Below are positions 1,843 to 35,453 of a stretch of 35,683 nucleotides of DNA, piece by piece (the first letter of the stretch is position 1; each line of letters opens with the position of its first letter). This DNA comes from a virus. The DNA is taken from the IMG/VR virus record IMGVR_UViG_3300031111_000024, positions 1-35,683 of that record; one strand, written 5' to 3'. The position numbers and the translations under genes are program-made. The notes below the pieces were generated by a model. The model worked only from the letters and a program-made list of their open reading frames with translations, was not told the origin of the DNA and made no database searches.

Positions 1843-2338
1843 GACAGCAGAAGAAAGACGGGCATACCAGCGGGATTATTACCACAAGAATGCCGAGGCA
1901 CGCCGGGCGTATCACAGGCGATGGACAGAGAGGAACCGGCCGGCAAGGAAGATATCGAAGGCGGGTGAGTCCCCGTATGGCGATACCAGGACGGCCGAGG
2001 GTTTGAAAGCGTACCGAAAAGCGTACTATGAAGCCCACAAATACAAGGCTGCCGAACACCAGAAGCGGCGGGATGCCCAAAAGAAGGCGGCTGGTACACC
2101 CCGATGGAAACGGCGGTTACGCGAACAGTCCCGTCAAGCCGGGCAATCCTACACGGCTTCCGATCTGGTGCATATGCCAACGGAGAAAGCAGCACAGGCG
2201 TTCGACAAGATACTGAGGGGTGAGGGGGTGCTGGTCCGTTCGGCGGAGACCGGCGATCATCCTGTGGCTTTGCGGGCAATCGACTACAGCCGTGAATCCC
2301 GTTTCAGCCGGGACAAGGTGGGGGGGAAGCTGGCGTGA
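1835..2338 (+). CDS. Hypothetical basic protein
   Basis: 167 residues, strongly basic, beginning with a helical stretch rich in Arg, Tyr, Lys and Glu (RRAYQRDYYHKNAEARRAYH), then a similar stretch near residues 55-85 (LKAYRKAYYEAHKYKAAEH). Such Arg/Tyr helices often precede HNH nuclease domains in phage proteins, but no HNH motif or cysteine pairs are present here. The start has GAGGAGG upstream (1821-1827). It overlaps the first DNA methyltransferase gene by four bases, GTGA style, so it is in the same operon. Nucleic acid binding is a guess from charge; I do not recognise the family. Confidence 0.8.
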   Translation: MAKTAEERRAYQRDYYHKNAEARRAYHRRWTERNRPARKISKAGESPYGDTRTAEGLKAYRKAYYEAHKYKAAEHQKRRDAQKKAAGTPRWKRRLREQSRQAGQSYTASDLVHMPTEKAAQAFDKILRGEGVLVRSAETGDHPVALRAIDYSRESRFSRDKVGGKLA

Positions 2339-3330
2339 AGTGGCCTGACGACTACATCGACAAGATCATCTGTGGCGATTGCTTGGAGGTGATGCAGGGC
2401 ATCCCCGATGGGGCAGTTGACCTCGTTGTCACCGATCCGCCGTATAATATTGGCAAGGATACGTGGGATAGAAGACCCGATTACGTTGGGTGGATTAGTG
2501 GTGCTTTTATTGGGTGTGATCGCGTCCTAAATGACCGAGGCTGCTTGTGGTTCAGCCATATGGTATTTCCGCTCTTGGCGGATATTCATCAGGAAATAAT
2601 ACAGACCACAGACCTCCGTCATGTCCAGTTTATCACCATAGACAAAGGGGTGGAGTCTATTGCGGGAAGGACGTCGGCAAGTCTGAGAACGTTTCCTCGC
2701 GCTACGGAGTATTACCAGCTTTACGCCTACGAAGACCCAACTGGAGCAGAGCAGTTGAGTGGCGAGATTGCATTAAAGAATCCGATGGCTCTATATTTAC
2801 GACAAGAAATTGATAGGTCGGGGGTTTCGCGTAAGGAAGTCGCATCCATTTTCCCATCCAAGACGGGCGGATTGACTGGTTGTGTATCTAATTGGCTCCT
2901 TGGCTATAACCTGCCATCCGTAGAACAATACGAGGCTATACGGGGACGCCTTGGGAAAGACTACCTGAGGCGTGAGTACGAAGACCTGAGGCGTGAGTAC
3001 GAAGACCTGAGGCGTGAGTACGAAGACCTGAGGCGTGCATTCAATTTGCCGTTTGGAGTGACCGATGTTTGGCGATACTGCTTCTCTGACGGTAAAAACA
3101 ACGGGCATTGTACGGAAAAACCAATAGGGGTAATGAGCCGAATCGTGTCCGCGAGTTCCCATACTGGCGACATCATTCTCGATCCCTTCTGCGGTAGCGG
3201 CACGACCTGTGTGGCGGCAAAGCAGCTTGGGCGGCATTACATCGGAATCGAAATCAACCCTGACTACTGCAAGATAGCCGAGGACAGGTTGCGGCAATGC
3301 GAGCTGTTCCCGGCGGGGAGTGAGGCATGA
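2335..3330 (+). CDS. DNA methyltransferase (N4/N6 type) with inserted HTH and heptad repeat
   Basis: 331 residues; starts with GTG at 2335. The order of motifs is DPPY (residues 34-37) before DPFCGSGTT (283-291), the beta-type order of DNA amino-methyltransferases. Between them is an insert with a helix-turn-helix-like segment (about 150-200, with SGVSRKEVASIF and VSNWLLGYNLPS) followed by three exact LRREYED heptads (residues 211-231), predicted coiled coil. The insert probably recognises the DNA target. The enzyme would methylate adenine N6 or cytosine N4 in phage DNA, likely to evade host restriction; no cognate restriction enzyme is visible nearby. It overlaps the next methyltransferase gene by four bases. 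Methyltransferase activity is certain by motif; the specificity is not. Confidence 0.93.
   Translation: MKWPDDYIDKIICGDCLEVMQGIPDGAVDLVVTDPPYNIGKDTWDRRPDYVGWISGAFIGCDRVLNDRGCLWFSHMVFPLLADIHQEIIQTTDLRHVQFITIDKGVESIAGRTSASLRTFPRATEYYQLYAYEDPTGAEQLSGEIALKNPMALYLRQEIDRSGVSRKEVASIFPSKTGGLTGCVSNWLLGYNLPSVEQYEAIRGRLGKDYLRREYEDLRREYEDLRREYEDLRRAFNLPFGVTDVWRYCFSDGKNNGHCTEKPIGVMSRIVSASSHTGDIILDPFCGSGTTCVAAKQLGRHYIGIEINPDYCKIAEDRLRQCELFPAGSEA
2965..3037 (+). repeat. 21-bp in-frame tandem repeat in methyltransferase gene
   Basis: Three exact copies of a 21-base unit (2965-2985, 2986-3006, 3007-3027) followed by the first ten bases of a fourth. Each unit encodes one LRREYED heptad, so adding or losing a unit keeps the frame and changes a predicted coiled coil by two helical turns. 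Exactly identical copies at the DNA level point to recent slippage or gene conversion. Confidence 0.95.
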
Positions 3331-5516
3331 AGTGGCCTGACCACATCGGACGAATCATCTGTGATGACTGCCTGACCGGGCTTCGCTCCGTCCCTGACAA
3401 CGTGGTGCATTGTGTTGTAACAAGTCCACCCTACTGGGGCTTGAGAGATTACGGCGTTGACGGCCAGCTCGGCCTTGAAGGGACGCCAGAGGAATACATC
3501 GGCAAAATGGTGGAGATATTCCGAGAGGTCCGGCGGGTGCTGAGAGACGACGGCACCTGCTGGCTGAATCTGGGGGACTCGTATTGGGGCGGCAAGGGGA
3601 AGTTGTCACAGGCATGGTCAACCGAACACCAAGACCGCGAGACACTCCAAAAATCACAGCACCAGATTTGCACGACAGGCGAGACGCGCCCGCAGGACGG
3701 GAAACACGACACAATCAAGCCTAAAGACCTCTGCGGCATCCCTTGGCGCGTGGCGTTGGCGTTGCAGGCGGACGGCTGGTATTTGCGTAGTGACGTTATC
3801 TGGTGCCTATCTGGTGGCACCCACGTTTACGCCAAGACACAGAAGGGCGAAATGCCGATGACAATCAAAGACCTTTATCGGCTCAAGCCTGAAACGGTGC
3901 AGCTCTGGAACGGTAAGAGGTGGACGCAACTTCTCGGTATGAACAAGAACCATCGGGCCGGTGATGAATTGGAAATCGTATTGAGATCGGGCGAAAGAAT
4001 CTCATGTACGCCAACGCATAAATTTCCCACTAAACGCGGGCTATTGGAAGCATCAGAACTACGGCTCGGTGACATTCTCAAGCGGGTCCGCCTGCCTCAA
4101 CCGGAGCATCCGAGAGATTGTGCTATTGACCATGATGCGGCTTGGTTCGCTGGTCTTTATCTTGCCGAAGGTTCACGCTCTGGCAGTTGCATTCAGATCG
4201 CGGGGCACGTCAAGGAGTCGTCCAGGTGGCGGGCGGTTACTCGGATCGCCGCGAAGTATGGCGGTTCGGCTACGAGAACCATCAACGGTAATAAGATGGA
4301 CATTCGCGTTTATGGCAAGGTGCTGAACGCGATCATTGACGAGTTGGTGTCTGGCAGGACGGCGCACGATAAGTGTTTCGCTCCGGTTGTCTGGCAGTAC
4401 AGCAATGATTTTGTCGACCGTATGCTTGCCGGGTATATGTCTGGCGATGGCCACTACGACGAAAAGAACGGGCGGTATCGCCTCGGTTTCTGCCGGAACT
4501 ATAACCTTGAGCGCGACCTGCGGACGGCCTGTGCGCGACTCGGTTTCCACCTGACACTCAAGATGTCCCATTCAAAATGTAACGAGAAGTCTTTCCCTTC
4601 ATTTAGGGGCGAGATGCGGTTTACGCTCAGTGACCACCGGAATAAGCGATCAAGGAACGAGATTGTAGAGATTCGGAAGTCTCGATGTCGGTATGTCTAC
4701 GACCTCGGTGTGGCCGACGATCCCCATACGTTCGCTTTGGCATCGGGTATTCTGACGCACAATTCAAAGCCGAACCCGATGCCAGAGAGCGTAACGGATC
4801 GGCCGACAAAGGCGCATGAGTACATCTTCCTACTCACGAAATCGGCGCGGTACTTCTACGACAACGAGGCGGTCAAGGAATCGACCACTGCACAGCCCAG
4901 AACGTGCGGAGCGAATAGCCGTGCTAACTGTGATCGTGATCCTGCCCACCAAACCAGGAAACAGGACGCTGTCGGAAGCCGCAGGTATGCAGGGTTCAAT
5001 GACCGATACGACTTTGCGAACCCGCCTACTGGTCGCAACCTCCGCACTGTCTGGAGCATAGCAACCGAGCCATACCCCGAGGCCCACTTTGCCACATTTC
5101 CCCGGAAGATACCGATGACCTGCATCCGGGCCGGTACATCCGAGCGGGGCGTATGCCCTGAATGCGGGGCACCGTGGGAAAGGGTGGTGGAGAAGGACAA
5201 ATCGTTTGAAAGCGGATCCGGGCGCAGCGGGAATCCGATAGCAGGGAAGAACGGACCCGACCTGCAAGGCGGAGGAGATACGGGAGACATCCGCAAGGGG
5301 CCGGTAGTGTCTACCACGACCACCGGATGGGAACCGACCTGTTCCTGTGGTCTGCCTGATACGGTCGGCGCGATCGTCCTCGATCCGTTCATGGGGTCCG
5401 GTACGACGATGCTGGTGGCGCGGGAGATGGGGCGCAGGGCTTTCGGGTTTGAACTGAACCCGGGGTATGTCGGTCTGGCAAACAAGCGTAATGGGCAGGA
5501 GGTTTTGTTCCAATGA
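3327..5516 (+). CDS. DNA methyltransferase interrupted by an intein
   Basis: 729 residues as translated; removing the 320-residue intein (residues 160-479) leaves a 409-residue enzyme. The host protein has SPPYWGLRDYG (SPPY at 33-36), the N4-cytosine-type variant of the catalytic motif, and DPFMGSGTT at 686-694. The rejoined extein reads DVIW/SKPNPMPESV, a conserved stretch of this methyltransferase family, which confirms the splice site. A CPECG and CSCG pair before the last motif looks like a zinc-binding knuckle and is typical of this family. It starts in the ATGA overlap with the previous methyltransferase and ends in an ATGA overlap with the resolvase gene. Expected role: modification of phage DNA against restriction, active only after splicing. 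Confidence 0.95.
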   Translation: MKWPDHIGRIICDDCLTGLRSVPDNVVHCVVTSPPYWGLRDYGVDGQLGLEGTPEEYIGKMVEIFREVRRVLRDDGTCWLNLGDSYWGGKGKLSQAWSTEHQDRETLQKSQHQICTTGETRPQDGKHDTIKPKDLCGIPWRVALALQADGWYLRSDVIWCLSGGTHVYAKTQKGEMPMTIKDLYRLKPETVQLWNGKRWTQLLGMNKNHRAGDELEIVLRSGERISCTPTHKFPTKRGLLEASELRLGDILKRVRLPQPEHPRDCAIDHDAAWFAGLYLAEGSRSGSCIQIAGHVKESSRWRAVTRIAAKYGGSATRTINGNKMDIRVYGKVLNAIIDELVSGRTAHDKCFAPVVWQYSNDFVDRMLAGYMSGDGHYDEKNGRYRLGFCRNYNLERDLRTACARLGFHLTLKMSHSKCNEKSFPSFRGEMRFTLSDHRNKRSRNEIVEIRKSRCRYVYDLGVADDPHTFALASGILTHNSKPNPMPESVTDRPTKAHEYIFLLTKSARYFYDNEAVKESTTAQPRTCGANSRANCDRDPAHQTRKQDAVGSRRYAGFNDRYDFANPPTGRNLRTVWSIATEPYPEAHFATFPRKIPMTCIRAGTSERGVCPECGAPWERVVEKDKSFESGSGRSGNPIAGKNGPDLQGGGDTGDIRKGPVVSTTTTGWEPTCSCGLPDTVGAIVLDPFMGSGTTMLVAREMGRRAFGFELNPGYVGLANKRNGQEVLFQ
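3804..4763 (+). other. Intein with LAGLIDADG homing endonuclease
   Basis: In-frame intein of 320 residues inside the methyltransferase. The first residue is Cys160, the block B motif TPTH is at 228-231, and the end is GILTHN with His478-Asn479, followed by Ser480 as the first C-extein residue. All residues needed for splicing are present. Between them is a two-motif LAGLIDADG endonuclease: FAGLYLAEG (acidic Glu281) and LAGYMSGDG (Asp374). Both acidic catalytic residues are kept, so the homing endonuclease looks intact. It sits in a conserved motif of the host enzyme, as expected of an element that targets conserved sites. Confidence 0.95.
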
Positions 5517-13115: not shown

Positions 13116-14354
13116 ATGGCCGATACAGGTGTCCACTACATCCCCAAGTGCGAGATCGACCAGCTCAAGCCGTATGATCGAAACCCCCGACAGAACGATC
13201 AGGCCGTCGAGGCCGTCCGTAAGTCCTTAGAAGCCCACGGTTTCCTTAACCCAATAATCGTCGATGCCGACTTCCGTATCTGCTGCGGGCATACAAGATT
13301 CAAAGCGGCTACGGAAATGGGGATGGACACCGTCCCGGTCATTGTAGCGCCCCACCTGGTCGGCTCTAAGTTCGTATCCTACAACATCGCGGACAATCAG
13401 ACCGGCGCCATTGCCGAATGGGACACCCCGGAGCTGGCTAAGATCATATCGGAGCTACAGGCCGAGGACTGGGACATGGAGTCCCTGGGATTCGACGGCA
13501 ACGAGATCGAAACGATCTTGGCGGAGATGGATGCCGGGGCCGGGACGGGCGGTGATCCCGAAGATGTTCCCGAACCGCCGGTCGATCCGACAACGCAGCC
13601 CGGCGACCTGTGGCTGTTGGGCGACCACCGGCTGCTGTGCGGGGACTCGACGAAGGAAGTCGATGTCTGCCTGCTGATGGACGGGACCGAGCCGTTCATG
13701 ATGGTTACCGATCCGCCGTATGGGGTGGAGTACGATCCGGGATGGCGGGATGAAGCCGCGAAGGCTGGTCACCTGTCCCCTGCGAACCGCAGGGTAGGAC
13801 AGGTGACGAATGACGACAAGGTCGACTGGTCTGCCGCGTGGTCCCTGTTCCCCGGCGATGTTGTGTATTGCTGGCATGCTGACCAGCATGCCAGTGAGGT
13901 CTTTAACTCATTGGCCGAATGTACATTCCTTATTCGGGCGCAGATAGTGTGGGCCAAGCCGGGGTTCGTTATAAGCCGGGGACATTACAACGGCCAGCAC
14001 GAGCCCTGCTGGTATGCTGTGCGCAAGGGGCGAAAGAGCCGATGGTGTGGCGATAATTCGCAGTCGACTCTGTGGCAGATCAGCAATCACCTGACAGATC
14101 AAGAGGGAAAGACCGGCCACGGCACCCAGAAGCCCCTGGAGTGCATGGCCCGCCCCATCCGCAACCACGGCAAGCGTGGCGATTCCGTCTATGACCCCTT
14201 CCTTGGCTCCGGCACGACCCTGATCGCCTGTGAGCAACTTGGGCGGAAATGCTACGGAATGGAGATCGATCCTGGGTACTGTGACGTCGTGGTCGAGCGG
14301 TGGGAATCCCTGACCGGCAAGACAGCCGAACTCGTGAGGACCGGCAATGGCTAA
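13116..14354 (+). CDS. ParB-like domain DNA methyltransferase
   Basis: 412 residues in two parts. Residues about 8-130 form a ParB/Srx-type domain: IDQLKPYDRNPRQND, an HGFLNPIIVD strand and GHTRFKAATEMG. Residues about 165-405 are a DNA amino-methyltransferase with DPPYGVEY at 199 and DPFLGSGTT at 360, the beta-type order. This fusion is well known in phages and prophages. It modifies DNA, probably for anti-restriction or for marking genomes for packaging, as it stands directly before the terminase. Translation is likely controlled by the hairpin at 13079-13112. It overlaps the next gene by eight bases. Confidence 0.93.
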   Translation: MADTGVHYIPKCEIDQLKPYDRNPRQNDQAVEAVRKSLEAHGFLNPIIVDADFRICCGHTRFKAATEMGMDTVPVIVAPHLVGSKFVSYNIADNQTGAIAEWDTPELAKIISELQAEDWDMESLGFDGNEIETILAEMDAGAGTGGDPEDVPEPPVDPTTQPGDLWLLGDHRLLCGDSTKEVDVCLLMDGTEPFMMVTDPPYGVEYDPGWRDEAAKAGHLSPANRRVGQVTNDDKVDWSAAWSLFPGDVVYCWHADQHASEVFNSLAECTFLIRAQIVWAKPGFVISRGHYNGQHEPCWYAVRKGRKSRWCGDNSQSTLWQISNHLTDQEGKTGHGTQKPLECMARPIRNHGKRGDSVYDPFLGSGTTLIACEQLGRKCYGMEIDPGYCDVVVERWESLTGKTAELVRTGNG

Positions 14355-21172: not shown

Positions 21173-22165
21173 ATGGATAATCACCTCATCGACCCTGTTG
21201 GGATGGATGATTTACGTCAGGGCACGAGCCTGATGGCACAGAAGATTCTTCAGGGGGGCATCGGTCCTCACCTGCGAGAAAACACCGTCCTGACTTACGA
21301 CCAGTGGAAAAAGATCGATACGGCAGTAGTGACGGCCGCCCGTCAGAGGATGGTCATTACGGCTGATGTGATGGGTAGGGGTCTGACTGAAGACCTGGGT
21401 TCTGATCCTCTTGGGGTTACTGTGATGGTGTCCCAGAAGGCTTCTGGTATCGCTGCGGCCCAGATGGACATGAACGCAGATACCGAGACCAGGAAGGACC
21501 GCATTGAGTTGGGTACGGACTACCTGCCTATCCCCATTGTCCACTCTGGTTTCTGGCTGAATGTCCGGGAACTCAAGGCCAGCCAGCGCAACGGTATCGG
21601 TCTTGATACCACCCTGGCTGAAGAGTGTGCCCAGGTCATCATGGAGAAGATCGAAACGAACTTCACCAGCGGGACCAGCAGCTTCAAGTTCGGCTCTGGT
21701 ACTATCTACGGCATCGAGGACTTCCCGAATGTCTCCACCACGTCCCTGACGGCCAACTGGGATGCGTCCGGTGCTGACCCGGTAGCGGATGTCGTCGCTT
21801 TGAAGCAGGCAGCTATCAACGACCGGCACTACGGCCCGTACATGGTCTACGTCCCTACGGCATACGAAACCCAGCTCGACACGGATTATGTGAGCGGGTA
21901 TCCGAAGAGTGTCAGGACCAGAATCCTTGAGATTGACAAGATCGAGGGGATTAAGGTCGTCGACAAGATGTCTGCGAACCATGTCGCTCTCGTTCAGATG
22001 CAAAAGAATACTATTCGAGCCGTCACCGGCTGGGGTGGTGCTTTGCAGACCGTGGAGTGGGAGAGCCAGGGCGGGATGCGCGTGCATTACAAGGTCATGG
22101 GCATCATCGTTCCGCAGATCAGGTCCGACTACAACGACCGCTGTGGTATCGTGATTGGCACCTAA
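21173..22165 (+). CDS. Major capsid protein (HK97 fold, encapsulin-like)
   Basis: 330 residues with CGGAGGAT upstream. The sequence matches the encapsulin-like branch of HK97-fold capsids: LGVTVMVSQKASGIAAAQMD, YLPIPIVHSGFWLNVRE, FKFGSGTIYGIEDFPN, HYGPYMVYVP and a final GGMRVHYKVMGIIVPQI. There is no obvious N-terminal scaffold (delta) domain, in line with the separate protease/scaffold gene upstream. Followed by a strong hairpin, as is common after highly expressed genes. Confidence 0.9.
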   Translation: MDNHLIDPVGMDDLRQGTSLMAQKILQGGIGPHLRENTVLTYDQWKKIDTAVVTAARQRMVITADVMGRGLTEDLGSDPLGVTVMVSQKASGIAAAQMDMNADTETRKDRIELGTDYLPIPIVHSGFWLNVRELKASQRNGIGLDTTLAEECAQVIMEKIETNFTSGTSSFKFGSGTIYGIEDFPNVSTTSLTANWDASGADPVADVVALKQAAINDRHYGPYMVYVPTAYETQLDTDYVSGYPKSVRTRILEIDKIEGIKVVDKMSANHVALVQMQKNTIRAVTGWGGALQTVEWESQGGMRVHYKVMGIIVPQIRSDYNDRCGIVIGT

Positions 22166-22182
22166 TGTAACCAACAATAATC

Positions 22183-22207
22183 CCCGCCGTCAGTAAATGG
22201 CGGCGGG
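22183..22207 (+). terminator. Hairpin after major capsid gene
   Basis: Arms 22183-22192 and 22198-22207 form a 10-base-pair GC-rich stem (one G-U) with loop GTAAA. No T run follows, so it is likelier a 3' mRNA-stabilising or weak pausing structure than a full terminator. Confidence 0.5.
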
Positions 22208-22227
22208 TGCCTATAGGAGAGACCCTC

Positions 22228-22593
22228 ATGGCTAAGTATAGAATCAAGAGCGGACGACATTACGGCAGAGACGGCAAGATTTATGACCCTGGTGACATCT
22301 ACGAATACGTCGGAGAATTACCGCACGCCCTCGCTTGCAAGTCGGAACTCGTCGAGGCCGACCCCGAAATCGAACAGCCCCCTGAAGCCGTCTTGAAGGT
22401 GGTCAACACCAGCCCCGGCTGGTATCTGGCAGTCAATCAGGCGACCGGCAAACCTATCAACGATAAGAAACTGCGCAGAGACGATGTTGTCGCTATCGCA
22501 GGAGAAGAAGCCGTCGTGGCTGCCGAAGCCGATGAGAACGGGGATGATCCAGAGAAGGAAGATGGCGAACCGGAAGACGAGGACAACGAGTAA
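22228..22593 (+). CDS. Small acidic head-associated protein (hypothetical)
   Basis: 121 residues from ATG 22228 (AGGAGAGA upstream). The first 60 residues are a beta-rich domain (KYRIKSGRHYGRDGKIYDPG); the middle has PGWYLAVNQATGKPIN; the end is a long acidic tail (EADENGDDPEKEDGEPEDED). It is probably a head or neck accessory protein, since it lies right after the major capsid. No family recognised. Confidence 0.7.
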   Translation: MAKYRIKSGRHYGRDGKIYDPGDIYEYVGELPHALACKSELVEADPEIEQPPEAVLKVVNTSPGWYLAVNQATGKPINDKKLRRDDVVAIAGEEAVVAAEADENGDDPEKEDGEPEDEDNE

Positions 22594-22599
22594 ACAGCA

Positions 22600-23220
22600 A
22601 TGAAAGTGGAGTCTTGGACAGTTCCCAAGATATGGGAAGGCGGAGAGTGTTTTGTGCTCGGGGGCGGGCCGTCGGTGAATAACCTCGACCTGCCTCGCCT
22701 GCATGACAAGCGGGTGATCGCTGTTAATAACTCATACCAGCTGGGACCGTGGGACGTGTTGTTCTATGGCGACTGTCGGTGGCGGGAATTGCATACACAG
22801 GGGCTGGCGGACTTCACGGGACTTAAGGTTCATGGGTGTCCACATGCTGAAGGTATCGGCGATATCAAGCGGGTCCACAGACACCATACGCCATACGGGA
22901 TTGATCGCCGGCCGAATGAACTGTGCTGGAACCGTTCAAGCGGTGCCTGTGCTATCAACTTGGCTGTCCACTTCGGGGTCAAACGAATCGTCCTGCTCGG
23001 CTTTGACATGCGGAAGGTCGATGGTGAGACTAATTATCATCGGGATCATCCGAAGCACCGCATGAAGAGTAGCAAGGTGCCGTACCCCTACCCGTCGTTC
23101 CTCGAACCGTTCCCTGTCATCGCCAGAGATTTGAAGAGACTGAAAGTCGAATGTGTTAACGCGACGCCGGGGTCCGCACTTGATGTGTTCCCCATTGTCG
23201 AACCAGATGAGGTCATGTGA
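22600..23220 (+). CDS. DUF115-like putative glycosyltransferase or sugar-modifying protein
   Basis: 206 residues. It opens with GECFVLGGGPSVNNLDL and continues VIAVNNSYQLGPWDVLFYGD, then GACAINLAVHFGVKRIVLLG with FDMR and NYHRDHP. This set of a glycine-rich loop, alternating strands and a GFDM motif belongs to the DUF115-like / sialyltransferase-like Rossmann families (Maf flagellin-modifying proteins use this fold). The reaction and substrate are unknown. It is the first gene of the sugar island between the capsid and connector genes. Confidence 0.7.
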   Translation: MKVESWTVPKIWEGGECFVLGGGPSVNNLDLPRLHDKRVIAVNNSYQLGPWDVLFYGDCRWRELHTQGLADFTGLKVHGCPHAEGIGDIKRVHRHHTPYGIDRRPNELCWNRSSGACAINLAVHFGVKRIVLLGFDMRKVDGETNYHRDHPKHRMKSSKVPYPYPSFLEPFPVIARDLKRLKVECVNATPGSALDVFPIVEPDEVM

Positions 23221-23244
23221 TGGGCCTCCATAAAAATCACGAGT

Positions 23245-23269
23245 CCGCCAGGCCCGGCGGTCGGTTTTT
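23245..23269 (+). terminator. Candidate intrinsic terminator inside the sugar island
   Basis: CCGCC (23245-23249) and GGCGG (23256-23260) pair around a six-base loop, followed by TCGG and five T residues (23265-23269). The stem is short but GC-rich. It lies in a 97-base gap between two sugar genes, so it may reduce expression of the following genes relative to the capsid genes. Confidence 0.45.
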
Positions 23270-23317
23270 CTCCGTTTCCCCACCCCGGGTCTGGCGCCTC
23301 CTCCTACGGGAGAATAC

Positions 23318-25210
23318 ATGATCACCGTTGCCTGCCTCTATAAGACCGGTGGGGACTTTTCAACCCACGACGTACACCGACTGTCTGACGCCGTTGCGCG
23401 ACAAATGACACAGCCCCACCGGTTTGTTTGTATATCCGATTCCCGTGTTTGCGGGATCAAGACCATCCCACTCGACCCCGACGTCCCGTCATGGTGGGGC
23501 AAGATGCAGGCGTTCCGAATACCTGGACCGGTGTTATTCCTTGATCTCGACACTATCCTTGTCGGCAATATCGACGGTTTGGCTGATGCCGTTAAGGGTT
23601 TGGGTGACAAGTTACTTATGCTCGACGACTTCTATCACTCTGGTGTACGCGCCAGTGGCATACTCGGATGGGCCGGGGACTTCTCGTCACTGTCTGATTC
23701 GTTCAACGAGATCATTCAGGGCAACCACAAATTTACAACTGCCGTCAATGCCTGCCGGTTGCGATGTCCTGGTGGGACATACCGGGGTGATCAGGAGCTA
23801 ATCAACCGGATGGTAGCAGACAGGAAGATAGCGACCGTGGCTGCACAGTCTGTGTTCCCTGGCATCTACTCCTACAAGGTCCACGTCAAAGACATAGGCA
23901 CTCCACCCGACGATGCTGCGGTTATCTGTTTCCACGGTCGCCCTCGTCCCAAGGAAGTCAATCAGCCTTGGGTCACAGGATATTCACAGGAAAAGGACAA
24001 GGCTTGTCGGGCCATTCAGATCAGGAAGAGTGTGACCAACTACAAAGGGCAGCATACTGGAACGCTGGTCGTTGCCGGATCCGCCGAATGCCTCCAGGAC
24101 GATCTGGATCGGGTTCGGAAGATACGGGACGATTTCAAAATAGCCGTCGTCGGTCATGCGGCGGGCATGATCAAAGCCGACCTCGTTGTCAGTGACCATT
24201 ACGAAGTTCATGCTGAACTGCGACGATTGCAGGAACAGTTTCATTCAGATTTCACGACGCATTGTACGTTCACCGCGTACTACCTGGAATATCCCAGCGT
24301 TGACTACTGGTGGGGATGGCCCCGGGCGCAAGCGACATCGATGGAAACGGCCGTCAGAATAGGGCTGCACACAGGGTTCGACGAAGTCATTCTGTGCGGT
24401 TGCCCTTTATCGGCTGGAGCGATACAACACCCCGATCAGCAGCGTAAGGACGGTCAGGTCTGGCCCCCCCCTCGTGACTTGAGCCGATACGCTCCCTGTC
24501 CCAGCAGGACATCCTCTGATCAGATATTAAATGGGTTCAGGGCAGGCTTTGCAAACGTAGCGTCGAGGTGGCGGGGGAGAGTCTTTTCGATGGGCGGGTT
24601 TACGAACCGGATGCTCGGCGATCCCCCCGACGAACCGTTGCCGCCGACGGCAGAGAATGAAGTTGACCGGCAGGTAACAATAGATCACTGGACAACGAGG
24701 GATTCGGTTCACCGCGTATATCCCAAAACGGCGGGTAAATGGGCCGACCCCGAGACCCCGAAGATACTGAAAGACCTGTGTGTCGGGACGGTTTGCGACG
24801 TGGGGTGTGGAACGGGTCGGTGCTGTGACCTATTCGGACCGGAGCTGTACGTTGGTGTTGATATTAGCCAGCACGCCGTTAACCGAGCCCGCAAACGATA
24901 CCCTGCCCATGACGTCCGGTCTGTGATGTGGGATGACGAATACCCCGAAGCCGATACGTATCTATTCCTCACGGTCTTACTACACGTCCCTGACAGCGAA
25001 TTGCCCAGGGTGTTGGCTCGAACAACAGGCAGGGTAGTAATCTGCGAAAGCATGGATCATCGATACCGGAGTGAGGGGCATTGCTGTTTCAACCGTGACG
25101 TCTCGGCCTATGTGGACCTCCTCACATCGTTAGGTCGCAAAGTAGTGAACCGTAAACGCCTCGAATCCCAATACAACCCGGGATTCGTGGACTTTCTGGT
25201 GGTGGAATGA
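23318..25210 (+). CDS. Three-domain glycosyltransferase / DUF115-like / SAM-methyltransferase fusion
   Basis: 630 residues. Domain 1 (about 1-230) is a GT-A-type glycosyltransferase: RFVCISD, WWGKMQAFRIPGPVLFLDLD with the metal-binding Asp76-Leu-Asp78, and a YRGDQELINRM block. Domain 2 (about 245-420) is a second Rossmann region, LVVAGSAECL to TAVRIGLHTGFDEVILCGCP, which has the layout of the 22600 protein. Domain 3 (about 465-630) is a class I SAM-dependent methyltransferase with CDVGCGTG at 493-500 and TVLLHVPDSELP. It could add and O-methylate a sugar. Substrate unknown; fusion is seen directly in one open frame. Confidence 0.85.
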   Translation: MITVACLYKTGGDFSTHDVHRLSDAVARQMTQPHRFVCISDSRVCGIKTIPLDPDVPSWWGKMQAFRIPGPVLFLDLDTILVGNIDGLADAVKGLGDKLLMLDDFYHSGVRASGILGWAGDFSSLSDSFNEIIQGNHKFTTAVNACRLRCPGGTYRGDQELINRMVADRKIATVAAQSVFPGIYSYKVHVKDIGTPPDDAAVICFHGRPRPKEVNQPWVTGYSQEKDKACRAIQIRKSVTNYKGQHTGTLVVAGSAECLQDDLDRVRKIRDDFKIAVVGHAAGMIKADLVVSDHYEVHAELRRLQEQFHSDFTTHCTFTAYYLEYPSVDYWWGWPRAQATSMETAVRIGLHTGFDEVILCGCPLSAGAIQHPDQQRKDGQVWPPPRDLSRYAPCPSRTSSDQILNGFRAGFANVASRWRGRVFSMGGFTNRMLGDPPDEPLPPTAENEVDRQVTIDHWTTRDSVHRVYPKTAGKWADPETPKILKDLCVGTVCDVGCGTGRCCDLFGPELYVGVDISQHAVNRARKRYPAHDVRSVMWDDEYPEADTYLFLTVLLHVPDSELPRVLARTTGRVVICESMDHRYRSEGHCCFNRDVSAYVDLLTSLGRKVVNRKRLESQYNPGFVDFLVVE

Positions 25211-25911
25211 TGAGCAAGACCTTCTCGATCCTCTGTCCTTCGCGCGGCCGGCCGGACCTGTTTGCCCGTATGGCCGAGTCTGCGAAATACGCCCCGGATG
25301 CTGATTGTGAGATACTGGCATTCCTGGATGACGACGACGAAACGGCCCTGGATTACCGCCGCGACTTGATTGACGATGTCGTTATCGGTCAGGTCAAGTC
25401 GGTGGGTGTGGCTTGGAACCGGTTAGCTGAACGGTGTTCCGGCCAGTACCTACTGATGGGCAACGACGACCTGGTCTTTGAGCCGGAATGGGACAAGAAA
25501 CTGCTTAAAGTATTCGCCCAGAGATTACCGGTCGATGGGCTCTTTGTGGCGTGGGCTGAAGATGGGTCTAAGCGTGGGAACGGCACATTTCCAATTATGA
25601 CCCGGCTGTGGTATGAAGTGCTGGGTTACTTCACCCCGACCCGGTTCCATTTCCTTTGGAATGATACGTGGGTGACAGACATTGCCCTCCGGGCCAAGCG
25701 GGGGTTCTACATCCCCGACGTCCTGATCGAGCACAGACATTTCACGTTTCACAAGGCTGAGTACGACGCCACTTACCGGCGCCATCGTGAGGGGCAGGGG
25801 CTGAAAACACAGGAAGACAGAAGGGTGTACACAGATTCGTTGGCCGACAGGAAGGCCGACGCCCGGGCTATCCTACGGAAGATTGAAGAACTGAAAGGCA
25901 TTACAAGATGA
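25207..25911 (+). CDS. GT-A-fold glycosyltransferase (GT2-like)
   Basis: 234 residues, overlapping the previous stop by four bases (ATGA). It opens FSILCPSRGRPDLFARM and EILAFLDDDDETALDY, typical of GT2-like enzymes, with SVGVAWNRLAERCSGQYLLM and Asn86-Asp87-Asp88 in the metal-binding position. The later block NDTWVTDIALRAKRGFYIPD with IEHRHF is the acceptor side. It probably moves a sugar from a nucleotide donor to a protein or glycan. It is coupled to its neighbours at both ends, so it works with them. Confidence 0.82.
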   Translation: MMSKTFSILCPSRGRPDLFARMAESAKYAPDADCEILAFLDDDDETALDYRRDLIDDVVIGQVKSVGVAWNRLAERCSGQYLLMGNDDLVFEPEWDKKLLKVFAQRLPVDGLFVAWAEDGSKRGNGTFPIMTRLWYEVLGYFTPTRFHFLWNDTWVTDIALRAKRGFYIPDVLIEHRHFTFHKAEYDATYRRHREGQGLKTQEDRRVYTDSLADRKADARAILRKIEELKGITR

Positions 25912-27191
25912 AGACCGGCATCATAGGATTGGGCAAAATGGGGTTGCCGATAGCAACTGCGATGGATTTCGGTGGCCACGACGTCATGGGGTATGACCTG
26001 AACCCCGCACGTATGAGCCTGGACCCACAACCGTATCGGGAAACCGGGCCGGATGGGCGCAGTGATTTCAATAAGTGGCTTGCAGCGTCGACGGTGAAGT
26101 TCGGGTCGATGGAAGAGGTTGTCGATCATGCGGACATCCTGTTCGTCATGACACAGACCCCGCATGACCCTGAATTCGAGGGGTTGACCCGGTTGCCGGC
26201 GGACCGCGTTGATTTCGATTATCAGTACCTACGCGAAGCCGTTCGGCAGATCGTTGATGTCGTCAAGGAACCGACCGTACTGGTGGTTGTGTCAACTGTC
26301 CTCCCCGGCACTCTGTCCCGCGAACTAAAGCCGATCATCGAACCGGTCAAGGATACATTGGCCCTGGTCTACAATCCGAGCTTTATCGCAATGGGTACGA
26401 CCATGAAGGACTTCCTGTATCCAGAGTTCATTCTGGTCGGGCAGGAAAACGTTGATGAGGCCGAAACCCTCAAGACGTTCTACTCCTCGTTTATCGACGC
26501 CCCCCTGATGACCATGTCTATCGAATCGGCGGAGTTGTCTAAGGTTGCCTATAACACGTTCATCGGGGAAAAGATCATATTTGCCAATCAGGTCATGGAG
26601 ATATGCGATCGGATGGCCGGTGCCGACTGCGATGAAGTTGCGGGGGCATTGAAGAACGCAAAGCGGCGACTGATTTCAACGGCCTATCTGGATGGTGGCA
26701 TGGGAGATGGTGGAGGATGTCATCCGAGAGACAACATCGCTATGTCATACCTGGCTCAGAAACTCGGATTGAAGTATGACCTATTCGAGTCGGTCATGCT
26801 GTGCCGGGAAGGTCAGACCGACTATCTGGCTTCGATGGCGGTCGGCTACGCTAAAGCAATGGATCTGCCCGTTGTCATTCTCGGCCAGGCATTCAAGCCC
26901 CATACAAACCTGACCATCGGAAGCCCGGCCATACTGTTGGGCAACCTGATAAAGGAAAAGGGAGTTGCTGTTCAGTATGCAGACAACGACGTCGGCACGG
27001 CACTCAAGGAATCGGACGTACTCCAGTCGCCGGCGGTGTTTGTGATTGGATGCAAACATGACAGATATGCGAATGCTGTGTTCCCCAAGGGGTCGTGGGT
27101 GATCGATCCGCATCGGATGATTCCCCCACAGGCCGGGGTTCACATTGAAGGTATAGGGTCAAAGGTCCGGGCAAACCCGGTGAAGGGATAA
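25908..27191 (+). CDS. UDP-glucose / GDP-mannose dehydrogenase-like enzyme
   Basis: 427 residues in the normal length range. The NAD-binding N-terminus is KTGIIGLGKMGLPIA; the middle has ESAELSKVAYNTFIGEKI with the conserved lysine; the catalytic cysteine is Cys271 in GGGCHPRDN, which replaces the usual GGSCFPKD and keeps the Cys and Asp. The C-terminal sugar-nucleotide domain has VVILGQAFKPHTNLTIGSPA. These enzymes oxidise the C6 alcohol of a nucleotide sugar to a carboxylate in two NAD-dependent steps. The changed motif may mean a different sugar. It overlaps the glycosyltransferase by four bases. Confidence 0.88.
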   Translation: MKTGIIGLGKMGLPIATAMDFGGHDVMGYDLNPARMSLDPQPYRETGPDGRSDFNKWLAASTVKFGSMEEVVDHADILFVMTQTPHDPEFEGLTRLPADRVDFDYQYLREAVRQIVDVVKEPTVLVVVSTVLPGTLSRELKPIIEPVKDTLALVYNPSFIAMGTTMKDFLYPEFILVGQENVDEAETLKTFYSSFIDAPLMTMSIESAELSKVAYNTFIGEKIIFANQVMEICDRMAGADCDEVAGALKNAKRRLISTAYLDGGMGDGGGCHPRDNIAMSYLAQKLGLKYDLFESVMLCREGQTDYLASMAVGYAKAMDLPVVILGQAFKPHTNLTIGSPAILLGNLIKEKGVAVQYADNDVGTALKESDVLQSPAVFVIGCKHDRYANAVFPKGSWVIDPHRMIPPQAGVHIEGIGSKVRANPVKG

Positions 27192-27194
27192 GTC

Positions 27195-27560
27195 ATGGCC
27201 AGGGTATCCACAAGTGACGTCAAGGCGCTACTGATCGGGTCAGAGTTAACAGACGAACAGGTGGAGCCGTTCATCGAGACGGCTAATGTGGTGGTCACGA
27301 ATCATTGCGCCGGATACAGTTACGACGCTGACGTATTGAAGCAGATCGAGCTTTGGCTGTCGGCACATTTCGTTTGTCAGGCCGATCCGCAGATTTCGAG
27401 AGAAGGGGTCGAAGGCGGTACGAATGTCACCTACGATGGCAAGACCGGCATGAACCTTGACAGCACCCGGTACGGCCAACAGGTGAAGATACTGGACTAC
27501 AAGGGCACCATCAGGGAAGCCCGCAAAGAACCGAGCCTCGATGTTATGATGGATGAATGA
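27195..27560 (+). CDS. Head-tail connector protein (adaptor)
   Basis: 121 residues. An all-helical N-terminus (VSTSDVKALLIGSELTDEQV, FIETANVVVTNHC, KQIELWLSAHFVC) is followed by an extended region (GMNLDSTRYGQQVKILDYKG), which is the usual design of gp6/gp15-like adaptor proteins that bind beneath the portal. Its place at the head of the connector block supports this. Sequence-level family assignment is moderate. Confidence 0.75.
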   Translation: MARVSTSDVKALLIGSELTDEQVEPFIETANVVVTNHCAGYSYDADVLKQIELWLSAHFVCQADPQISREGVEGGTNVTYDGKTGMNLDSTRYGQQVKILDYKGTIREARKEPSLDVMMDE

Positions 27561-34646: not shown

Positions 34647-35453
34647 ATGGCAGCAACAGTAAAAGCAATCACGACCGGAAACATGGCGGCGGCTACGGTG
34701 CTGTCTGTGACGTCTGAAGCTACCGGATACCCGAAAGAGAACGTGCTCGACAACAACCCCGATACGTATTGGAAGTCTACGGATGGATCCGTCAACCAAT
34801 ATTTTGACTTCGACCTGGGATCGGCCAAGACAGTGGACACCGTGGTGCTTTGGGTTCATAACTATGAAGATCTGACCAGTTCCAGGGTGGTGCGCCTGTA
34901 CTATTCTGATGATGAAGTGACGTACACGTTTGAATCTGGATCACCTGAGTTACCCGATTCTGCCGGTCCGTTGAGGATAAGGACGTTAGGCACAGCGAGA
35001 ACCCACAGGTATTGGAGAATCATTATCGACGGCGACGCGTCGTCTCTGGCCGAAGTCCCAGAGATATCGGGGGTCTGGTTTGGAACCTTATGGCAGCCAA
35101 CGGTTGGCAGTAGGTATCCCGAATCCGATGCTGTCATGGCGGGGAATGGGGTTGCGATATCAAATGCCGGCCGACAATTCGGCATGGCGTACAGGTCATG
35201 CCTCCAGCACCTGTATACCAGATCATTCCGTGTCACTACGGATGCTGACCTTGCGGAAGTGCAGGGAATGTTCACCGACAGTTTGGGACGGTTGAGGCCG
35301 GTGTTTCTGTGGGAAAGTTCAACGCAAACGGACGCCCATATGTGCTATCTGCAAACCGACGAAATGAACATAACTGAAATAGGCCCGGACATACACGATA
35401 CGGTACTACAATTCTTGTCGGTGCCATACATCGGACCAGGGGACAGCTACTGA
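34647..35453 (+). CDS. Tail protein with F5/8 type C (discoidin-like) domain
   Basis: 268 residues. Residues about 15-150 are a galactose-binding-like F5/8C domain: TGYPKENVLDNNPDTYWKST, FDFDLGSAKTVDTVVLWVHN, VRLYYSDDEVTY and RYWRIIIDG. The rest (SAVMAGNG-like and RSFRVTTDADLAEVQGM) is a tail-tip-type domain ending near the tail gene stop. F5/8C domains bind sugars or lipids; here the protein is a strong candidate for host receptor recognition. It ends in an ATGA overlap with the next small gene. Confidence 0.8.
   Translation: MAATVKAITTGNMAAATVLSVTSEATGYPKENVLDNNPDTYWKSTDGSVNQYFDFDLGSAKTVDTVVLWVHNYEDLTSSRVVRLYYSDDEVTYTFESGSPELPDSAGPLRIRTLGTARTHRYWRIIIDGDASSLAEVPEISGVWFGTLWQPTVGSRYPESDAVMAGNGVAISNAGRQFGMAYRSCLQHLYTRSFRVTTDADLAEVQGMFTDSLGRLRPVFLWESSTQTDAHMCYLQTDEMNITEIGPDIHDTVLQFLSVPYIGPGDSY

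Follow-up and report, generated by a model that had tools for sequence, protein, structure and literature searches.

What do four genes for sugar-modifying enzymes do in the middle of the head genes of a virus? In the window, the whole stretch of 35,683 nucleotides analysed here (positions 1 to 35,683 of IMG/VR record IMGVR_UViG_3300031111_000024), these genes occupy 22600-27191 on the + strand and are flanked by capsid and head-tail connector genes. An earlier note, made from the sequence alone, had placed four such open reading frames between these landmarks, and their positions and profile matches bear this out. The features of the region are as follows.

21173..22165, + strand: major capsid protein (MCP; DUF6260, HK97-like), left landmark and proposed acceptor (PF19774 2.2e-20; PHROG 771 (head) 1.9e-22; lineage alignment A1)
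22207..22593, + strand: small acidic-tailed head gene that separates MCP from A in 69 of the 71 non-redundant loci
22600..23220, + strand: A, Maf/CstII-fold (DUF115/GT42-like) glycosyltransferase, 206 aa, the constant first gene of the cassette (PHROG 4603, AF2 model, alignment)
23318..25210, + strand: B, 630 aa, three domains
23318..23995, + strand: B domain 1, GT8-type GT-A transferase, relative of P1 PmgQ (PHROG 1962, model)
24008..24655, + strand: B domain 2 (middle), possibly degenerate DUF115/MptE-like (weak PF01973; middle domains of L135 and L133)
24668..25210, + strand: B domain 3, class I SAM-dependent methyltransferase (Methyltransf_25, model)
25207..25911, + strand: C, GT2-family glycosyltransferase, 234 aa (PF00535, PHROG 14945)
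25908..27191, + strand: D, nucleotide-sugar 6-dehydrogenase family, Glu-less phage subfamily, 427 aa (TIGR03026, PDB matches, alignment)
27195..27560, + strand: head-tail connector-1 type protein, right landmark of the cassette (PHROG 302 and DUF4054, both weak; 3' of the cassette in full islands)

The small head gene at 22207-22593 gave no match to Pfam or PHROG profiles; downstream of the connector gene at 27195-27560 are a gp10-like gene and then the terminator and MTP genes. The coupling by ATGA overlaps that the earlier note read from 23318 onward is present at B/C and C/D, while A and B are uncoupled and lie 97 bp apart. The GC and GC3 of the island are those of the flanking head genes, so it does not have the look of a recent foreign insert, and we rejected such an origin on this composition together with co-inheritance with the MCP, described below.

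Recurrence and co-inheritance of the cassette in related phages

The relatives in this lineage are uncultured contigs, and the lineage is known here from genes alone. Gene A adjoins the MCP gene in 71 non-redundant contigs that carry both (median gap 434 bp), in 69 of which one and the same small gene intervenes. Among MCP-selected loci, A was found in every one whose MCP reaches 38% identity and whose sequence extends far enough downstream. The recurrence of the same gene in the same place in dozens of divergent phages excludes chance, and the island is not random cargo. The earlier note had taken this site to be free of such genes in most phages; in this lineage, sugar genes here are the rule.

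From A to connector-1 the cassette measures 1.5-9.2 kb, and its interior varies from phage to phage. The 212 interior ORFs form 90 families, 58 of them singletons, and their Pfam tally is led by methyltransferases, glycosyltransferases (GTs) of families GT2, GT11, GT9 and GT7, epimerases/dehydratases, hexapeptide transferases and radical SAM proteins. A gene that we label SULF, on a weak sulfotransferase call, is present in 34 of 41 full islands and abuts the connector gene in 33; it is absent from the window. The window set (A, GT with middle domain, GT2, methyltransferase and dehydrogenase) is complete in L135 and L133 and for the most part present in L131 and L079, at 29-55% identity to the counterparts in L135, L133 and L131 and in three different fusions. 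Across loci, C co-occurs with D (Fisher p 2e-6), as does the methyltransferase (4e-5). The reading of the four genes as a functionally coherent sugar-modification set is upheld by this joint recurrence in L135, L133 and L131; scattered unrelated cargo in relatives, which the earlier note had named as a refuting outcome, is not what these contigs show.

Pairwise distances between A sequences follow those between the MCPs (Mantel rho 0.55, p 0.002), as do those of the decoration gene (0.54) and SULF (0.49); distances of the interior PmgQ-like GT do not (0.13, p 0.16). These patterns bear on the idea that the genes serve auxiliary metabolism, of small molecules or more generally, and that the site is a tolerated insertion hot spot among head genes. 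The extreme variability of the interior would fit that idea, as would the distant relatives without A, which have one GT-like gene or none at the site. With A constant on the capsid side and SULF on the connector side, both co-inherited with the capsid gene, and with a content nearly uniform in its sugar and methyl chemistry, we consider it improbable. The different sugar-gene sets at the same spot suggest instead that the particles of these phages carry a coat of sugar chains, made by the phage itself and open to exchange. Interior genes would be swapped among phages, and A, usually along with the terminal SULF-like gene, would be kept with the capsid module; related phages would then show different surface glycans. 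Bacterial O-antigen and capsule loci are likewise exchanged.

Folds and predicted activities of proteins A to D

Protein A matches PHROG 4603 (E 3.5e-33), whose label 'alpha-2,3-sialyltransferase' we did not adopt as its function, and matches PF01973 (DUF115/MptE) weakly, with 20.2 bits under the Pfam cut-off of 34.6. Its AF2 model (pLDDT 88) contains the catalytic Rossmann-like fold of the Maf central domain and CstII, aligning with Maf 5mu5 at VIA Z 16.6 over 187 of 206 residues (rmsd 3.4) and with CstII/CstI at Z about 11-12 (Foldseek E 7.9e-5 for CstII); identity to these structures is 12-17%. An alignment of 15 A sequences has GGG.S, N43, D136 and H147 invariant, and a GxGPS-type motif is common to A, the Maf flagellin glycosyltransferases and GT42 CstII. 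The likeness to Maf is one of fold: whereas the Maf enzymes are multi-domain, A corresponds to the central domain alone, aligning solely to residues 253-510 of 5mu5, and the three-domain Maf architecture is absent. Maf directly O-glycosylates flagellin (PMC11339370), and A, relatives of which occur in more than 500 viral contigs, may by analogy place the first sugar onto Ser/Thr of a virion protein, be it the capsid, a decoration or the small head protein.

Residues 1-226 of B match the GT profile PHROG 1962 (6.7e-36), carry the DxD motif as DLDT and are modelled with a GT-A fold (Z 17 to LgtC and glycogenin). From residue 489 onward B is a class I SAM methyltransferase (Methyltransf_25 5.8e-07, 30.5 bits against a cut-off of 27; model Z 15.5 to SAM methyltransferases), the counterpart of which is a stand-alone gene immediately 5' of D in L131, L133 and L135. 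The middle domain is 45-52% identical to its counterparts in L135 and L133 and scores 14.1 bits (window) and 28 bits (L135) against PF01973, under the cut-off of 34.6; its hhalign match to A was not significant, and the B model, built without the L133 and L135 homologues, is poor in this part. Protein C matches PF00535 (GT2; 5.7e-06, 26.8 bits, cut-off 23.3) and the GT profile PHROG 14945 (3.2e-40), and its counterpart forms one protein with A in L131, and one with B domains 1-2 in L133. Protein C and the GT8 domain of B would extend the chain from nucleotide sugars, and the methyltransferase of B would cap it with methyl groups. Structure prediction, which the earlier note had proposed, thus gave a Maf/CstII fold for A and GT8-type and methyltransferase domains for B, with a middle domain that was not confidently modelled; the enzyme assignments made from the sequence broadly stand, with qualifications for this domain, where the DUF115-like call is a weak match, and for D, which is without the canonical UDP-glucose dehydrogenase (UGDH) Glu.

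Protein D matches PHROG 9148 (2.3e-76) and exceeds the curated cut-offs of PF03721 (81.1 bits), PF00984 (68.5 bits) and TIGR03026 (196.4 bits); the C-terminal UDP-binding domain PF03720 scores 23.2 bits, under its cut-off of 30. Cys271, Lys212, Asn216, Asp275 and Thr130 are invariant in the alignment of the window protein with 85 phage homologues. Where canonical enzymes have NPEF..EG, D has NPSFIAMG, with Ser at the position of the NPE-motif Glu (E161 in the human enzyme). This catalytic Glu is absent from all 84 sampled members of the phage subfamily to which D belongs, where F, Y, Q, A or L stands in other members, and is present only in the outgroup S-SSM7 among the 85 homologues; the subfamily has nearly 600 relatives in viral contigs among the matches listed. 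D may act on a nucleotide sugar, oxidizing its C6 and so yielding a donor that is a uronate or resembles one. Its assignment as the source of an activated uronate is insecure, since without the catalytic Glu of UGDHs production of a plain uronate is unproven and the product uncertain. NadE adjoins the D homologue in 20 of the 85 loci, but neither the window nor the L079 record has one, and we rejected uronamide formation via a NadE-like ligase for the window on that ground. Members of the subfamily also lie near methyltransferases and GTs in sugar clusters of marine T4-like, Pelagibacter and jumbo phages (Bellamy, HTVC008M, LR756502); there, unlike in the window, a NadE-like amide ligase is adjacent and, in the stretches read, the dehydrogenase is not beside the capsid gene.

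Another reading is sugar hypermodification of the phage DNA by these genes. SP-15, a phage with a UGDH, is believed to hypermodify its DNA with glucuronate, and its UGDH relative adjoins a UTP-glucose-1-P uridylyltransferase gene. The SP-15 enzyme, however, is a canonical Glu-containing UGDH outside the subfamily of D. Some viral GTs glycosylate DNA (Pyle 2024, as cited in PMC12619734), and the window has three DNA methylases; on the other hand, no thymidylate-synthase-type base-modifying gene scored above cut-off in the window and 17 related records (possibly incomplete), and the cassette lies in the head module with a content too varied for one DNA modification. We regard a role in DNA hypermodification as very improbable.

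Virion or host as target, and known systems

Phage GTs that change the host serotype are well known, and the target of the cassette could be a glycan on the host surface (LPS, capsule), altered in infected or lysogenic cells so as to block superinfection or change serotype; the place of the genes in the late operon would then be incidental. The interior genes do resemble O-antigen loci, and integrase genes in 4 of 18 records indicate that some relatives may be temperate, although there is none in the window nor in 13 of the 17 related records (possibly incomplete). The island proteins are soluble in character: transmembrane-type hydropathy exceeds KD19 1.9 in 4 of 212 cargo ORFs, and A-D are all at or below 1.6. 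Among them no membrane flippase or polyprenyl-phosphate transferase was seen, and A-D lack the membrane-bound character of the flippase and transferases of gtr-type serotype conversion. Together with the fixed place by the MCP gene, co-inheritance with it, and the resemblance of A to a protein glycosyltransferase, this makes a host target rather unlikely in our view. Co-inheritance of A with the capsid gene favors the virion as the probable target.

The closest precedents for glycosylation of the virion are mycobacteriophage Corndog and protein A064R of chlorovirus PBCV-1. In Corndog, gp35-gp38 in the virion operon comprise an O-methyltransferase, two GTs and a GlcNAc-transferase-like protein, and its authors proposed that the capsid carries methyl and glycan modifications (PMC4351075). 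As in the window, GT and methyltransferase genes sit in the structural block; the likeness is one of gene content and position, the Corndog set lying in the portal-protease interval and the window set in the MCP-connector interval, and for Corndog no dehydrogenase is mentioned and no constant-ended exchangeable cassette described. Other than Corndog, literature searches outside subscription papers gave no earlier description of a capsid-side variable glycan cassette. Mycobacteriophage capsids are glycosylated (PMC11256854, PMC12619734), and these papers cite Freeman 2023 for mycobacteriophage virion glycosylation with capsid and tail glycans. PBCV-1 A064R combines two GT domains and a methyltransferase in one protein that completes a capsid-protein glycan (PMC9614988), a layout comparable with the GT, GT-like and methyltransferase domains of B; as PBCV-1 is a eukaryotic virus with an N-linked glycan, the likeness is in working principle only.

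Relatives of A also lie beside virion genes, with GT and methyltransferase genes, in the unrelated cultured phages D3, PAJU2 and CcrColossus. In Pseudomonas phage D3 the homologue is directly 3' of the MCP and a small gene, with GT9-like and methyltransferase genes nearby, although the D3 MCP has no sequence-level relation to that of the window; in Pseudomonas phage PAJU2 it is among the connector genes, with GT and methyltransferase genes nearby. Unlike the window set, both lack a dehydrogenase, and the CcrColossus cassette is by tail genes, not head genes. The earlier note knew of no such four-part combination in this place, a claim that has to be narrowed, since Corndog, D3, PAJU2 and CcrColossus all have GT and methyltransferase genes within their virion operons. 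The P1 homologues pmgO and pmgQ are non-essential (PMC10695390), so that a role in assembly is not implied.

Taken together, we think it probable that the four genes represent one allelic version of a late-expressed cassette, fixed in its site across a large phage lineage, that glycosylates a virion protein, the genes being transcribed late together with the head genes. More tentatively, and at somewhat less than even chances, the locus may act as a capsid-linked 'serotype' locus, in which a Maf-like initiator and a SULF-like cap are constant and the interior is exchangeable, so that each phage head bears its own glycan; in the window, the Glu-less dehydrogenase supplying the donor would halt at the thioester/aldehyde stage or divert the reaction there, so that the product is something other than plain uronate. 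This subfamily also poses a concrete question of enzymology.

Phage virion glycosylation has so far been known from a few cultured examples. In dozens of the phages examined here the same capsid-linked place is kept for a cassette whose ends are constant and whose interior can be exchanged. This makes testable the idea that particle surfaces diversify by sugar-cassette swaps, as in bacterial O-antigens, and with it the purpose that any benefit to the phage may reflect (adhesion, recognition or stability); the cultured proxies D3, PAJU2, CcrColossus and P1 make such a test practical.

Organization and setting of the island

The earlier note described a four-gene sugar island inside the virion gene block, and an ORF check of the 35,683-base virus record confirmed both its coordinates and its gene order. 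The genes, here A to D, lie between those for the major capsid protein (MCP) and a head-tail connector:

22600-23220, +: A, PHROG 4603 match
23318-25210, +: B, fusion of a PHROG 1962 glycosyltransferase (GT), a middle region and a class I SAM methyltransferase
25207-25911, +: C, GT2 protein
25908-27191, +: D, UDP-glucose/GDP-mannose 6-dehydrogenase superfamily

ATGA overlaps are present at the B/C and C/D junctions; A/B has none. The GC and GC3 of the island are the same as those of the adjoining head genes. Elsewhere, the window encodes three DNA methylases within a 35 kb fragment, at 2335-3330 (+), 3327-5516 (+; N6_N4_Mtase) and 13116-14354 (+), the last fused to a ParB-like N-terminal domain. 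N6_N4_Mtase has an intein-like insertion, with Pfam Intein_splicing at residues 212-479 (below the cut-off) and LAGLIDADG_3 at 362-420. The tail gene block has, at its far end (34647-35453, +), a gene for a protein with an F5/8 type C (discoidin, carbohydrate-binding) domain.

A variable cassette linked to the capsid

A search with an alignment of four capsid proteins recovered 28 related viral contigs. Among contigs with sufficient downstream sequence, those whose MCP reached 38% identity all carry A, which follows the MCP and an intervening small gene; contigs with an MCP of 35% identity or less were without A, several having an empty site or one GT-like gene there. In the distant capsid relatives L035-L037 and L039, which lack A, precisely this MCP-connector site is filled by just one GT-like gene, and a different one, suggesting its independent occupation.

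A 15-sequence alignment of A retrieved at least 528 relatives in viral contigs and only nine in a set of 84,980 species genomes of bacteria and archaea, each of them on a metagenome-assembled genome (MAG) contig. The best 80 relatives, pooled with earlier loci, were reduced to 76 loci at 80% A identity. The MCP is present in 71 of these, with the same small gene between MCP and A in 69; upstream of A, the five loci without an MCP extend for no more than ~2.3 kb. Of the islands, 41 are complete through to the connector and span 1.5-9.2 kb (median 4.9 kb). A sulfotransferase-like gene occurs in 34 and adjoins the connector in 33, and a GT related to PmgQ of phage P1 is found in 33. Their interior ORFs (212, in 90 families, with 58 singletons) most commonly match methyltransferases, GT families 2, 7, 9 and 11, epimerases, dehydratases, hexapeptide transferases and radical SAM proteins. 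The site is thus occupied by a sugar cassette that is exchangeable in its interior and constant at its ends.

Two side observations concern these islands. The island of L054 (6164-7488 and 11272-14270) carries A twice, along with two sulfotransferase-like genes, possibly a recombination intermediate of two cassettes. L121 (DSEQ01000021.1, 82 kb) and L044 represent the same cassette phage, once in a viral contig of 58 kb that includes an integrase gene and once in a longer contig of a Zixibacteria MAG, a possible host link.

Distances between A proteins correlate with capsid-protein distances (Mantel rho 0.55, p 0.002, 47 loci). The same holds for the decoration protein (rho 0.54) and the sulfotransferase-like protein (rho 0.49), while the interior PmgQ-like GT shows no correlation (rho 0.13, p 0.16). 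A therefore moves with the capsid module, and the interior is swapped between phages. Such co-inheritance is what would be expected of an A acting on a virion protein, and falls short of proof.

A scan with the D subfamily added further phages of the lineage, three of which are ordered as follows:

L135: MCP, small gene, A, GT+middle, C, methyltransferase, D, connector
L133: A, GT, sulfotransferase-like, fused GT+middle+C, methyltransferase, D, sulfotransferase-like, connector
L131 (contig of L079): A fused to C, GT, methyltransferase, D, sulfotransferase-like, connector

L135 has the window's set, but with the methyltransferase as a gene of its own; L130 and L132 share parts of it. Set members are 29-55% identical to those of the window, in phages whose capsids are 36-66% identical to one another, values that mark the association as old. 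C is present in five of six D-bearing loci, the window included, versus 0/48 full islands without D (p 2e-6), and the methyltransferase in five of the same six versus 2/48 (p 4e-5); the 48 islands were de-duplicated among full islands only and the 41 among all A loci, hence the differing counts. Three different fusions link the same parts. Scattered, unrelated cargo in relatives was the outcome that the earlier note set against its own reading. Recurrence of the set, the co-occurrence of C and the methyltransferase with D and the three fusions answer this point: the genes are kept together in L135, L133 and, for the most part, L131.

Predicted activities of the island proteins

A model of A, built with 14 relatives from other contigs (mean pLDDT 88), matched best to a Maf flagellin glycosyltransferase (Z 16.6, 187/206 residues), followed by archaeal HPPK (MptE type) and then two GT42 sialyltransferases, CstII and CstI (Z 11-12). 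Maf enzymes transfer CMP-activated nonulosonic acids directly to flagellin Ser/Thr, and their central domain resembles Cst-II (PMC11339370). The score of A against Pfam PF01973 was under the cut-off and A contains none of the other Maf domains; the likeness is therefore one of fold only, and A, which could act like the Maf/CstII catalytic domain, is not filed as a Maf protein. In the model of B, the N-terminal domain adopts a GT8-type GT-A fold (Z 17 to LgtC and glycogenin) and the C-terminal domain that of SAM methyltransferases (Z 15.5), whereas the middle domain was modelled poorly.

D retains Cys271, Lys212, Asn216, Asp275 and Thr130, but its NPSFIAMG replaces the NPEFL.EG of canonical enzymes. 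The position of the NPE glutamate is F, Y, Q, A, L or S in the window and the sampled phage members of the subfamily (Glu in 0/84), the sole Glu being that of the outgroup S-SSM7. The search used two patterns, one of them biased towards F, Y or S at this position; members found with the other (CHPRDNI) also lack Glu. An E161 mutant of human UGDH trapped the thiohemiacetal intermediate (PMC3184952). D may make a free uronate or an aldehyde, or divert an acyl-enzyme to another nucleophile. Of 85 D homologues, 20 have a NadE-like amide ligase nearby (L008, L009, L010, L013, L014 and 15 other loci); the window and the L079 record showed none. In marine T4-like, Pelagibacter and jumbo phages such a ligase sits directly beside the dehydrogenase, a pairing that suggests uronamide-type sugars in those phages.

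Proposed virion glycosylation and its alternatives

Relatives of A adjoin virion genes, with GT and methyltransferase genes, in the cultured phages D3, PAJU2 and CcrColossus. In D3 the relative directly follows the MCP and a small gene, as in the window, although the D3 MCP has no sequence match to that of the window; in PAJU2 it lies between connector and tail genes, and in CcrColossus after the tail genes. P1 pmgO is a relative of A and pmgQ of the GT of B, and both are non-essential (PMC10695390); phiNP has a pair of this type beside its terminase genes. The nearest working models for the island are PBCV-1 A064R, a GT-GT-methyltransferase fusion that finishes a capsid glycan (PMC9614988), and the GT/methyltransferase block inside the virion operon of Corndog (PMC4351075). 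In mycobacteriophages, capsids and tails do carry glycans (Freeman 2023, cited through PMC11256854 and PMC12619734).

The island most likely works by glycosylating a virion protein. Late in infection, A would place the first sugar on this protein, the GTs would lengthen the chain, D would provide an oxidised donor and the methyltransferase would cap the product. The same enzymes might instead modify the host surface or hypermodify DNA, or the island could be neutral cargo; the first two readings are countered, to differing degrees, by the soluble nature of the proteins, the capsid linkage and the missing base-modifying genes, none of which scored above the cut-off in the window and 17 related, possibly incomplete, records. 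The sugar island of the earlier note is real, on evidence that now goes beyond its first description, and the note's interpretation is supported in part; the coherence of the gene set was upheld in relatives, and the uronate step needs revision, as D is without the catalytic Glu. With the virion as its inferred target, the island belongs to a known phenomenon, phage virion glycosylation; what stands out beyond this is a capsid-linked, exchangeable cassette and a widespread dehydrogenase subfamily that lacks the glutamate.
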